This document shows positions 58,121-62,037 of a stretch of 64,000 nt of DNA, in pieces (the stretch's first letter is position 1; the number at the start of each line of letters is the position of its first letter). The stretch is from NCBI RefSeq assembly GCF_014203425.1, contig NZ_JACHJC010000001.1, positions 5,916,001 to 5,980,000 on the forward strand, read 5' to 3'. The position numbers were made by a program, and so were the translations under genes. The notes below the pieces were generated by a model. It was given only the letters and a program-made list of their open reading frames with translations. It had not been told where the DNA came from and searched no databases. Source of the DNA: Micromonospora echinospora (GTDB lineage: Bacteria; Actinomycetota; Actinomycetes; Mycobacteriales; Micromonosporaceae).

Positions 58121-58428
58121 GACCGTCGCCGGGTCGGGTCGAGCTCCGCCGCGAAATACGCGCTCGCGGCCTTCAGGATCTCGTTCGCCCGCCGCAACTC
58201 GGCGACCTCCCTGCGCAGCCGGCGGTTCTCCTCCGCCATCTCGCTGGTCGGCCGGTCGTGACGCTCGTCGGCGTCGGCCTCGGCCTGACGGATCCAGTTC
58301 CTGAGCGCCTCGTGATGCACACCAAGCTGCTCGGCCAGGCGCCGGATCACCGGCTTCGGATCCGACTCGCGGTACAAACGCACAGCGCGCTGACGTAGCT
58401 CATCGGGGTACTTCTTCGGTGCTGCCAC
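58117..58428 (-). CDS. IS3 transposase OrfA
   Basis: The 103-residue protein has a helix-turn-helix (YPDELRQRAVRLYRESDPKP, RRLAEQLGVHHEALRNWIRQ) and a leucine-zipper region (MAEENRRLRREVAELRRANE). GTG 58428 with GGGGAGGAAG upstream is the preferred start. Its end overlaps orfB by 4 nt (ATGA); fusion by frameshifting is normal for IS3. Confidence 0.85.
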   Translation of the reverse strand: MAAPKKYPDELRQRAVRLYRESDPKPVIRRLAEQLGVHHEALRNWIRQAEADADERHDRPTSEMAEENRRLRREVAELRRANEILKAASAYFAAELDPTRRRS

Positions 58429-58659
58429 GGACAACTTCCTCCCCACGGCCATCAGACCATGATCAAGAAGCTCCATGAAAGCGGGGGTAGCTCAGGATGG
58501 GCAACACCTTGTTGGCTGCCTCTGGCACACGTTGTATCGTACGAAGCGTTACAACGTGATGCACTGTGATGCACTGTGGTGCAGAAGAAGACCCCCGCCC
58601 TTCTGGTGGCAACCGCGAGGCGAGGGCCTTCCGTCTGGCGTGGGTCCAACGACGATCGG

Positions 58660-58824
58660 TCAGTTGGGCCCACAGCCGTTTCCGGCCAGCGTTACCGCCA
58701 GCCCTACGGCGTAGGCGAACAGCTTGAGTACGACTGCCACCCCCTCCGCAGCGTCCCGCCACCGGTTGGCGTTGGTCCGCCGGTTCTTGCTCGGGCCCAA
58801 GGGCCCCTTGCGGCGCCTTGTCAC
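58660..58824 (-). CDS. Small membrane peptide, copy 1 (54 aa)
   Basis: A GTG at 58824 preceded by GAGAAGAGG opens a 54-codon gene. The N-terminus is basic (TRRRKGPLGPSKNRR), a hydrophobic segment spans residues 29-48 (VAVVLKLFAYAVGLAVTLAG), and the end is NGCGPN. It aligns without gaps to copy 2 (23 of 54 identical by eye), which strongly supports coding. A TATGGT box (58949-58944) lies 120 bases upstream, matching copy 2. Function unknown; toxin, signal peptide or small membrane regulator are possible. Confidence 0.6.
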   Translation of the reverse strand: MTRRRKGPLGPSKNRRTNANRWRDAAEGVAVVLKLFAYAVGLAVTLAGNGCGPN

Positions 58825-59470
58825 TGCCACCTCTTCTCAACTCGTCGGATCGAGGGCGGATGAACCCCCGGCCGCCGGAGCCATCCGGACCCTCAATCAG
58901 CTTGAGCTGGGGTCCAAGTTGGTCAGTGCCGTGCGCAGGAGACACCATAGCGAGCCAACCCGACGGATGGCGTGTCGCACTACATCTTCATACACAGGTT
59001 CGATAGGCGTAGGCACGTCATGCGTCCCAAGCACGCGGCTTAGCGCGCTGCAACTTAGGGACACAGCGTGCCGCTTATGGCCTTGAGCTGCGCCGATAAC
59101 ATCTGATCTGGCTGCTTGGAAAATCACCAAGCGCCGCCAAGGCTGGGTAGGTGTACATACAGGACCGCATGCGGACTACGTCGACGAACTTTTTGTGCAT
59201 GCTCAGCTCGTGGCTGAGGTCGAACTTGCTACCTCAGGACACACAGACGACCCGGAGGGGTTTTCGTCGGGCGTTCCGTCATGGCCGGCAAGGCGGTAGC
59301 GCGGCCGAATCGCCGCCAGGCTGTCGCGCCCCAGGTTAAGGTTGTAAGGTCCGAACCGTTAGGACGTGCTGGCGTTTCACGCACCAGCACCAGCAGGAAG
59401 ACCCCCGCCCCAGCTTGGAGGCCCAAGGCGGAGGCCCTTCCCCACCGGTACGGGCCTGGTTGGCGTTAGG

Positions 59471-59635
59471 TCAACTAGGCCCGCATCCGTTCCCGACCAG
59501 CGTCGCCGCCAGCCATGCTGAGTGGGCAAGCAGCTTCAGCGCTGGAACCACCCACTCGTTGGCATGCTCGCAGCGCTTACTGCCAGCGTGCCGGTTCCTT
59601 TTCGGGACCTGAGATCCCCTCTTGCGCGCGGACAT
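59471..59635 (-). CDS. Small membrane peptide, copy 2 (54 aa)
   Basis: The ATG at 59635 has a strong CAGGAGGGCG ribosome-binding site. The peptide is basic at first (SARKRGSQVPKRNRHAGSK), then hydrophobic (VVPALKLLAHSAWLAATLVG), ending NGCGPS. Identical length and the shared RxxG, NR, LKL, LA.TL and GNGCGP residues pair it with copy 1. Its promoter-like TATGGT (59757-59752) is 117 bases upstream, close to copy 1's 120. Downstream sequences of the two are also similar (GGCGGGGGTCTTC). Confidence 0.65.
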   Translation of the reverse strand: MSARKRGSQVPKRNRHAGSKRCEHANEWVVPALKLLAHSAWLAATLVGNGCGPS

Positions 59636-60134
59636 CGCCCTCCTGTCGATGAGAACTGCTGACCTCCGAGGGGTTTGACCACCCCCCGGCCGGAGGGCTG
59701 GTCGACACCGTCCGAGTACGACAGTCAGGGCATCGGTCCGTGCGCTGACACACCATACCGGGAACCACGCCCACGCATGGCAAGTCCGTTACACAGGTGG
59801 AAAGGCTTTCCCATGCTGCTAGAGACAGGACACATGCAACGCCAAGAGCAGAAGTTGGGCCGGAGGCACCGCTCAACCGACACCCCAGCCACTCCTGGCC
59901 ACATAGCTTGAGCTGGCAGTTCTCTAGCAATACACCAAGACACCCCCTCCGAACTAGCCGCGACAGGGGAACCGATAGGGGCATCTACATAAGCAGGTCA
60001 ATCTTCCTCATTTCCCATGTGCGGGAATCCCATCCGCACAAATTGCAGTACCGTCGAAGAGACTTACAGAACTCGGATCGATGCCAGCCAGCCAGACGCA
60101 TCGACGTCCCCCGTATCGACGGACCAGGTTCCGC

Positions 60135-61118: not shown

Positions 61119-61184
61119 GAGTGTCGCTCACGTCCCGTCGCCGCCTACGTCACCGACCTCAAACCCACCACCGCACGCGCCGCT

Positions 61185-61887
61185 GCTGCTGCTGCCAGCG
61201 CTACCCGAGTGCTCGGCAGATCCAATTCGTGCATGCAGTGCTGCGGAACGCCCTGCAACACGCCATGCGGAAAGAGTTCATGTCGCGCAACGTCGCCAAG
61301 CTGGTCCGCGTACCAGCGCCCCGCTACCGGGTCGGTAAGGGCCCGTCGGTCGAGCAGGTCCGCAAGCTCCTCGCCGCCACGGAGGGCAGCGGCTCCACGC
61401 GCTGTACGTGGTAGCCGCGACTCTCGGACTGCGGCGGGGAGAACTGCTCGGGCGCCGCTGGTCGGACCTTGACCCCGACAACGGCACCGCCACCATCGGG
61501 CAGACGGTGCAACGTGCCGGCGGCGAACTGCGCCTACAGGACACCAAGACCGAGGACTCGGACAGCATCCTCCCGCTCCCCGACTGGACCTGGCTGGCGC
61601 TGCTCGACCACCAGGAGCGCCAGCGCGAGGTCCGTACCCCGATGGAGCCACGCAACCTCAACCGACACTTCGCCGGCCTCCGAGAGAAAGCCGGCTGCCC
61701 TGACATCCGCCTGCACGACCTGCGGCACACCGTCGTCTCGCTGCTGATGGAGTTGGGCGTCCCGCCGCACATCGTCCAGGCCATCGCCCGGCACGCCGAT
61801 GTGAAGATCACGCTGAAGGTATACTCGCATGCCAACCTCGACGCGATGCGTCAGGCGCTCGGCAAGCTCGACGGGCGTCTTTCATAG
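61185..61887 (+). pseudogene. Decayed tyrosine integrase of an integrative element
   Basis: The 5' part (ARQIQFVHAVLRNALQHAMR, RNVAKLVRVPAPRYRVGKGP) matches the core-binding domain of actinomycete element integrases. At about 61390 the frame shifts and continues as LHALYVVAATLGLRRGELLG (first Arg), then HDLRHTVVSLL, ARHADVKITLKVYSHANLD (Arg, His, Tyr). The N-terminal part is missing and about ten residues seem deleted before TPMEPRNLNRHF. It would cut at the adjacent tRNA if intact. Two lesions plus lost start make it inactive. Confidence 0.85.
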
Positions 61888-61950: not shown

Positions 61951-61965
61951 GCTGATGATGAAGGG

Positions 61966-62037
61966 TGGGCGCGGCAGGTTTCGAACCTGCGACCCCTCGC
62001 TTGTAAGGCGAGTGCTCTCCCACTGAGCTACGCGCCC
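61966..62037 (-). tRNA. tRNA-Val(TAC)
   Basis: The cloverleaf is complete on the minus strand: acceptor GGGCGCG/CGCGCCC, D-arm GCTC..GAGC, anticodon stem CTCGC/GCGAG with loop CTTACAA (anticodon TAC), and TPsiC arm GCAGG-TTCGAAA-CCTGC. The encoded end is ACC and then C, so CCA is added after transcription. Its 3' end faces the integrase remnant, the usual arrangement when a tRNA is the attachment site. Confidence 0.95.

Follow-up and report, generated by a model that had tools for sequence, protein, structure and literature searches.

Two tandem genes for small membrane peptides, each followed by two hairpins that appear to belong to RNAs of opposite strands, were found in a 64,000-nucleotide stretch of the Micromonospora echinospora genome (NCBI RefSeq assembly GCF_014203425.1, contig NZ_JACHJC010000001.1, positions 5,916,001 to 5,980,000 of the forward strand). 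This whole stretch is called the window here, and coordinates are those of the window unless a locus handle precedes them. We put at roughly one half (about 0.5) the probability that the copies are type I toxin-antitoxin-like modules of the kind often carried on integrated mobile elements, in which the peptide would be toxic and an antisense RNA would act on its mRNA. The locus is accordingly filed as type I-like in the way it would work, rather than as a proven member of the type I systems. More tentatively, the modules may form a type I family in Actinomycetota that integrative elements of the Micromonosporaceae have spread. A single inverted repeat would then encode the near-constant GCGP tail of the peptide, hold the stop codon and, on the other strand, terminate the antitoxin RNA, which would lock toxin mRNA and antitoxin into 3' ends that overlap. 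An earlier note, made from the letters of this DNA, had singled out the two peptide frames and their upstream signals; two covarying 3' hairpins, one of them across the stop codon, and antisense signals are features beyond that note. The parts of the two copies are the following.

58944..58949, minus strand: sense -10-like box TATGGT of copy 1, within TATGGTGTCT, a block that de novo search picked out of the 5' flanks
58825..58943, minus strand: 5' leader of copy 1, predicted to be strongly folded, with the ribosome-binding site at its 3' end
58660..58824, minus strand: copy 1 peptide, 54 amino acids, with a basic N-terminus, hydrophobic residues 29-47 and the C-terminus GNGCGPN
58637..58677, minus strand: hairpin 1 of copy 1, across the last codons and the stop codon (fold, model match at 58586-58679, covariation)
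58583..58636, minus strand: hairpin 2 of copy 1, GC-rich, terminator-like and sense-kept (fold, model match, covariation, fold energy)
58532..58540, plus strand: TTGTATCGT, a -10-like element, proposed as part of an antisense promoter for copy 1 (motif scans)
59752..59757, minus strand: sense -10-like box TATGGT of copy 2 (sequence and de novo motif)
59636..59751, minus strand: 5' leader of copy 2, with predicted pairing of the ribosome-binding region (unpaired probability 0.22 versus 0.50 in shuffled leaders)
59471..59635, minus strand: copy 2 peptide, 54 amino acids, with hydrophobic residues 29-47 and the C-terminus GNGCGPS
59446..59489, minus strand: hairpin 1 of copy 2, across the stop codon (fold, model match at 59396-59490, covariation)
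59393..59445, minus strand: hairpin 2 of copy 2, sense-kept (fold, model match, covariation, fold energy)
59342..59350, plus strand: TTGTAAGGT, a -10-like element, proposed as part of an antisense promoter for copy 2 (motif scans)

A conserved small membrane peptide

Both minus-strand frames described by the earlier note are present and paralogous, each consisting of 54 codons and a TGA stop, with a GTG start in copy 1 and an ATG start in copy 2. The alignment is gapless over all 54 residues, as the note had it, and 24 of the 54 are identical when the GTG start is taken as M, one more than the 23 that it counted by eye. The two upstream signals it reported were likewise found: purine-rich ribosome-binding sequences (AGAAGAGGTGGCA and ACAGGAGGGCG) precede the two starts, and the TATGGT boxes lie 119 (copy 1) and 116 bases (copy 2) from the start codon, so that both tandem copies have their own set of signals. 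No third copy was found in the window genome, where the next match had an expect value (E) of only 0.075. All searches pooled gave 27 modules in 25 genomes, 18 of them within the window's genus (160 genus genomes), and every module found belongs to the window's bacterial family. The note had proposed a new small-protein family, and the homologues bear it out in that frame, membrane segment and C-terminal motif are all retained.

Protein-level constraint, which the note had named as a check, is present and moderate. We measured it on the 13 equal-length core members of a 15-row alignment (A3), with the shorter or shifted L073/L102 and L011/L092 left out. Pairwise differences were 0.304 at codon position 3 versus 0.202 at positions 1 and 2 (permutation p = 0.0016, and p = 0.010 after codons 48-54 were dropped), and the ratio of nonsynonymous to synonymous differences (pN/pS) was 0.56 when pooled over the 78 pairs. 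It was lowest, 0.35, in the last eight codons among the three parts compared.

A 19-residue hydrophobic segment was seen in all 25 peptides scanned (mean Kyte-Doolittle value 1.45-2.50), a set in which L104-L108 were cut at the matched part instead of the start codon and to which L082 and L083 did not belong. As cut, the peptides are 33-59 amino acids long, within the size (about 60 amino acids or less) that defines the small hydrophobic peptides of type I toxins. The net charge ahead of the segment is at least +4 in 18 of the 25, with L104-L108 cut short and values of 0 in L124 and -1 in L132; this charge pattern suggests a membrane orientation with the N-terminus inside and the C-terminus outside. 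The C-terminus reads GC[GS][PL]-x in 22 of the 27 modules (exceptions L102, L103, L108, L082 and L083). In most members it comes straight after the hydrophobic segment, and it recurs in diverged ones.

Two hairpins kept on opposite strands

In minimum-energy folds of the first 22 modules, a hairpin spanning the stop codon was formed in all, and a second, GC-rich hairpin lay 3' of it in 21, being drawn differently in L100. RNAalifold, applied to all 22 rows as aligned by MAFFT, found little consensus structure (energy -1.4, 9 pairs), since hairpin 1 was left unaligned; the consensus structure was set by hand on 10 rows and Infernal aligned the remainder. In the loci searched, the 10-row covariance model lists 21 of the 22 modules at E <= 1, 10 of these by construction, and L103 is unlisted. 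Covariation was then scored on a set of 22 modules, from which L101, L103, L108, L082 and L083 were left out as being below the cut-off or not supplied. Changes on both sides were found in 24 of 34 pairs, 89.5% of cells were paired, and the covariation score was 0.358 versus 0.181 in shuffles and at most 0.123 when the structure was slid, in an alignment that is biased towards the structure and with shuffles that leave relatedness in. The 10-row MAFFT alignment had nine pairs changed on both sides and a score of 0.199 versus 0.150, with none of 500 shuffles as high; its further pair types showed no excess (21 versus 20.4 shuffled).

Where one strand has a G-U pair the opposite strand has an A-C mispair, and the two hairpins differ in which of the two they hold. 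Across the 22 modules, hairpin 2 has 64 G-U cells versus 4 A-C cells and is therefore kept on the sense strand, and hairpin 1 has 13 G-U versus 45 A-C and is therefore kept on the antisense strand. Training of the model used the sense strand, a bias that counts against the hairpin 1 result and may favour that for hairpin 2. Thinning to 17 modules left G-U:A-C ratios of 48:4 in hairpin 2 and 12:34 in hairpin 1. Counted by column, hairpin 1 has 10 columns favouring A-C and 3 favouring G-U, while hairpin 2 has 10 favouring G-U and none favouring A-C. Fold energies run the same way: for hairpin 1 the antisense RNA is the more stable form in 20 of 22 modules, all but the diverged L124 and L130 (mean -29.3 versus -22.9 kcal/mol), and for hairpin 2 the sense RNA is the more stable form in all 22 (mean -29.8 versus -21.5 kcal/mol). 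If each RNA ends at the hairpin of its own strand, it must first traverse the terminator of the other, and the two then have about 95 complementary bases in common. This arrangement would be odd for separating neighbouring genes and natural for an antisense pair.

Promoters, leader and proposed mechanism

De novo motif search was carried out on 23 modules, the near-duplicates L093 and L099 being left out. It returned TATGGTGTCT from the sense 5' flanks, with a log-likelihood of 84.1 versus 28-31 in six shuffles, and TGTATCGTTC from the antisense strand of the 3' flanks, with 47.1 versus 27-31 in six shuffles; the real run had 150 restarts and the shuffled runs 40, which favours the former. A sense box (TATGGT, TACAGT, TATTGT or TATGCT) stands upstream in 20 of the 27 modules and is exactly TATGGT in 12, in agreement with the earlier note, which had taken the coding and promoter parts to be conserved together. 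On the opposite strand just past the hairpins, promoter-like TGTATCGT or TGTAAGGT was found in 9 of 27 modules by a strict pattern and in 11 by a looser one that had been widened in light of the de novo motif. Of 22 flanks, 8 have the pattern TGTA[TA][CG]GT on the antisense strand, versus 0.12 expected, and one has it on the sense strand. In predicted folds of 13 leaders the ribosome-binding region has a mean unpaired probability of 0.27 versus 0.39 in shuffled leaders, and in five (W2, L094, L095, L097 and L098) no more than 8% of 60 shuffles were as low.

Taking these elements together, the sense mRNA would start just past TATGGT, cross hairpin 1 and end at hairpin 2, and its leader would partly conceal the ribosome-binding site. 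An antisense RNA of about 130 nucleotides would start near the opposite-strand TGTATCGT or TGTAAGGT, cross hairpin 2 and end at hairpin 1. The two RNAs could pair through some 95 complementary bases at their 3' ends, and the duplex would be degraded or translation blocked. When the element is lost, the mRNA would outlast the antisense RNA, and the peptide would enter the membrane, the basic part facing inwards and the tail outwards. Once inserted it would damage the cell, and the element would thus be retained.

Extent of the family

The homologue search proposed in the earlier note was productive. A two-row profile matched 14 of the 160 genus genomes at E <= 0.001, in 15 places, and so reached 13 further genomes with E values of 1.7e-27 to 2.3e-5. 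Single-peptide searches of 200 genomes of the bacterial family added members in other genera; at E <= 1 they match 184 and 161 of the 200, nearly all by chance. With a 15-row profile, 17 of 397 genomes of the order were matched at E <= 0.001. Named carriers include Micromonospora arborensis (strain NRRL 8041), M. mirobrigensis, Salinispora pacifica (strain CNR114) and S. fenicalii. Five matches outside the bacterial family (L080, L081 and L084-L086; E 7e-5 to 8e-4) were rejected, having no match to the hairpin model on rescan, as were two order-wide matches of the 15-row profile that lie inside 622-amino-acid frames and also lack the hairpin model.

The hairpin model matches 12 of the 160 genomes of the genus and 16 of 300 genomes of the bacterial family, and misses 3 of the 14 genus genomes found by the profile (G210, G211 and G299). 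It found three modules that the protein searches had missed, L124, L130 and L132, whose upstream frames encode small hydrophobic peptides ending NGCGPF, NGCGPA and NGCSPT, respectively. One further match (G224:C2, E 0.0096) was a plain terminator by eye. When 60 weak-match loci were rescanned with the model, only L082 and L083 (L020 being the same place) reached E <= 0.01. At L083 (1409-1505) the position of the stop codon reads TGG, and the hairpin across this position is intact. A search of 296 genomes of the class with the hairpin model, under strict filters by which weak matches are lost, gave one other genome only. Because this single match outside the bacterial family is an ordinary terminator by eye, we regard the peptide family as limited to the window's bacterial family.

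Database searches gave no relatives. The two window peptides had no Pfam match at E <= 10, 15 members had none in PHROGs, NCBIfam or PADLOC at E <= 0.1, and Rfam gave nothing over window positions 58400-60100. In PDB a profile search matched only a barley peptide, twice and at chance level (E 0.056 and 0.24), and both matches were rejected. The suggestion of the earlier note that the peptides might be phage-related finds nothing behind it: besides PHROGs, phages and plasmids gave no match to one member (the peptide of L064, by tblastn), and viral contigs gave none to one pattern from alignment A3. Judged from these searches, the peptide family is undescribed so far.

Genomic context

We compared the neighbourhoods of 21 loci, 18-20 kilobases each or as much contig as was taken. 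Genes of integrative or conjugative elements lie near 12 of them, in line with the island location claimed in the earlier note: the family is often in mobile DNA. In the window the relevant feature is

61121..61887, plus strand: integrase region of two frames, of which the second (61408-61887) matches Phage_integrase

The first of these frames has no Pfam match and was called the other part of the integrase by eye. The region adjoins a tRNA-Val gene (61964-62037, minus strand); no repeat of the tRNA 3' end was found within the window, and the other end of the element was not located. Transposases to the left of the two copies have Pfam matches of IS110-like, IS4/5-like and IS3-like (HTH_Tnp_1 plus rve) types. 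Elsewhere, a HerA/DUF87-type ATPase is encoded near L094 (Pfam) and near L089, L090 and L097, with a fragment in L098 (by cluster); a relaxase, coupling protein or primase near L091 and L105 (Pfam) and L103 (by cluster); FtsK, a pSAM2-type RepSA and a GntR regulator in the neighbourhood of L106; and large serine recombinases near L102 and L108. The remaining nine loci (L092, L093, L095, L096, L099, L100, L101, L104 and L107) have no clear element gene; L104 is about 500 bases from a tRNA-Ser gene, and L095 has an open reading frame of the coupling-protein cluster 8.8 kilobases away.

Some further features recur around the modules. The proposed antisense promoter of copy 1 overlaps an inverted repeat, CGTTGTA...TTACAACG, after which come tandem TGTGATGCAC-like repeats (window positions 58500-58590); TGCA repeats of a similar kind were seen by eye beyond hairpin 2 in several other modules. 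These repeats are possibly an operator of some regulator. GntR-family genes stand less than 5 kilobases from the module at L099 (3113-3877) and L106 (8962-9705), both by Pfam, and at L107 (5590-5811, a short open reading frame of the same cluster), and their products may bind the repeats beyond hairpin 2. After the module of L099 (4163-4866) there is a small antitoxin-like gene with a PIN-like gene, of VapBC type by eye. A conserved membrane-like protein is encoded near three modules (L102, 8898-9602, without a Pfam match; L106, 13083-13739; L108, 8910-9662) and looks like an integrative-element gene.

Alternative explanations

Several observations weigh against the type I-like module. Protein constraint is only moderate, and L083 has no stop codon. 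The antisense element is missing in 16 of 27 modules by the looser pattern and in 18 by the strict one, the sense box is missing in 7, and L100, L105, L132, L082 and L083 have neither; a clear -35 element was seen for neither promoter. The ribosome-binding region is not less accessible than in the control in 3 of 13 leaders (L089, L096 and L102), and a long U-run was not seen after either hairpin. A weak sense hairpin at the stop codon may itself have been selected for, which would account for part of the antisense bias of hairpin 1. The library searches (Pfam, PHROGs, NCBIfam, PADLOC and PDB) gave no similarity to known families; none to TxpA, BsrG, Hok, Ldr, Ibs or Fst was found, and which toxin families the libraries contain was unchecked. 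Finally, the next open reading frame of at least 90 amino acids, as called mechanically, is convergent in 13 of the 21 loci, so hairpin 1 could be a stop for the neighbour's transcript and read-through could be the source of antisense RNA.

This last arrangement would suit a non-toxic small membrane protein serving the element, for instance in conjugation, entry exclusion or host interaction, its hairpins being a terminator pair against convergent genes and the antisense RNA mere read-through. We consider this possible but on balance doubtful. It accords with the element genes near 12 of 21 loci and with the GC-rich, terminator-like form of the hairpins. However, one would expect a transcript separated from its neighbour in this way to reach its own terminator before the other, yet the hairpin favoured by each RNA is the far one. 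Moreover, the asymmetry holds in the eight loci without a convergent next frame, the window with both copies among them, where hairpin 1 is still antisense-favoured, although in L106 by merely 1.2 kcal/mol. A constant partner gene is also absent, since besides the peptide no gene cluster is common to more than 6 of the 21 loci.

Enterococcal inhibitor peptides of the PrgQ/iCF10 type and Bacillus Phr peptides such as PhrI of ICEBs1, which are small exported precursors encoded by elements and carrying the signal at the C-terminus, are models for another explanation, which we regard as improbable. Here the outer tail (of the GNGCGPN type) would be released to control transfer of the element, and the precursor would be regulated by antisense RNA. 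The likeness would lie in the element-encoded small precursor with a C-terminal signal, and the position of the tail directly after the hydrophobic segment in most members, its low pN/pS and recurrence in diverged members, and the suggested outward orientation all agree with it. Signals usually diverge between elements, in contrast to the present tail, which is near-constant across the family while the remainder varies; nor is there a constant neighbour gene, no cluster being common to more than 6 of the 21 loci in a comparison that was not aimed at receptors.

The last two explanations seem very unlikely. In one, the peptide is a leader or arrest peptide, and a ribosome paused at the last codons would melt hairpin 1 and switch downstream expression; the conserved C-terminal residues do abut the stop codon and the hairpin is formed from the same codons, but hairpin 2 comes immediately after, and there is no conserved downstream gene of the same direction, the next frame being convergent in 13 loci and, where it is co-directional (8 of 21), of differing clusters. 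In the other, equally remote, the module yields a structured RNA as its product, with the frame being incidental, as the reach of the hairpin model to members whose peptides escape protein searches might suggest; against this stand the third-position excess and the gapless frame in the 13 core members, and all 27 modules have a small hydrophobic peptide ahead of the hairpins, even if that of L083 has no stop codon.

Relation to known systems and significance

Of the known systems, hok/Sok combines a membrane peptide bearing an outside, cysteine-containing tail with a folded mRNA, and its antisense RNA overlaps the 5' part. The present modules resemble it in the membrane peptide, the cysteine tail predicted to lie outside and the predicted folding of the mRNA, and differ in the end at which the antisense RNA would act; no sequence similarity was found.

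The toxins of txpA, bsrG and yonT are located in the membrane. The corresponding loci of Bacillus subtilis prophages, txpA/RatA, bsrG/SR4 and yonT/SR6, have the layout proposed here, each with a small toxin peptide and a cis antisense RNA acting at the 3' end. According to one account, yonT (58 amino acids) and SR6 overlap by about 65 nucleotides at their 3' ends, txpA/RatA is a cis-encoded, prophage-borne pair, and RNase III takes part in both systems (PMC5848175). The Bacillus loci belong to another phylum and no sequence similarity to them was found; the modules described here, whose transcripts and toxicity are predicted, have in addition the hairpin at the stop codon and the conserved tail. 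Like them, msoT1/msoA1 of Microcystis is a type I-like locus claimed beyond the classical phyla, but it is cyanobacterial and bench-tested (PMC12390103), whereas the present modules form a family backed by covariation. As stated in that 2025 paper, Proteobacteria, Firmicutes and Tenericutes had been the only phyla in which type I systems were found, and it adds Cyanobacteria (PMC12390103). Among the matches listed in our literature search, none named a type I system of Actinomycetota in its title or at the start of its abstract, and reports may exist elsewhere.

If the type I-like reading is true, a family in Actinomycetota would widen the phylum range of type I systems. The covariance model and the short tail motif would then provide a handle for finding more, and the asymmetry between G-U pairs and A-C mispairs reads from genomes alone which of two overlapping RNAs owns a hairpin. 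The modules could also help to explain how integrative elements are retained in antibiotic-producing actinomycetes.
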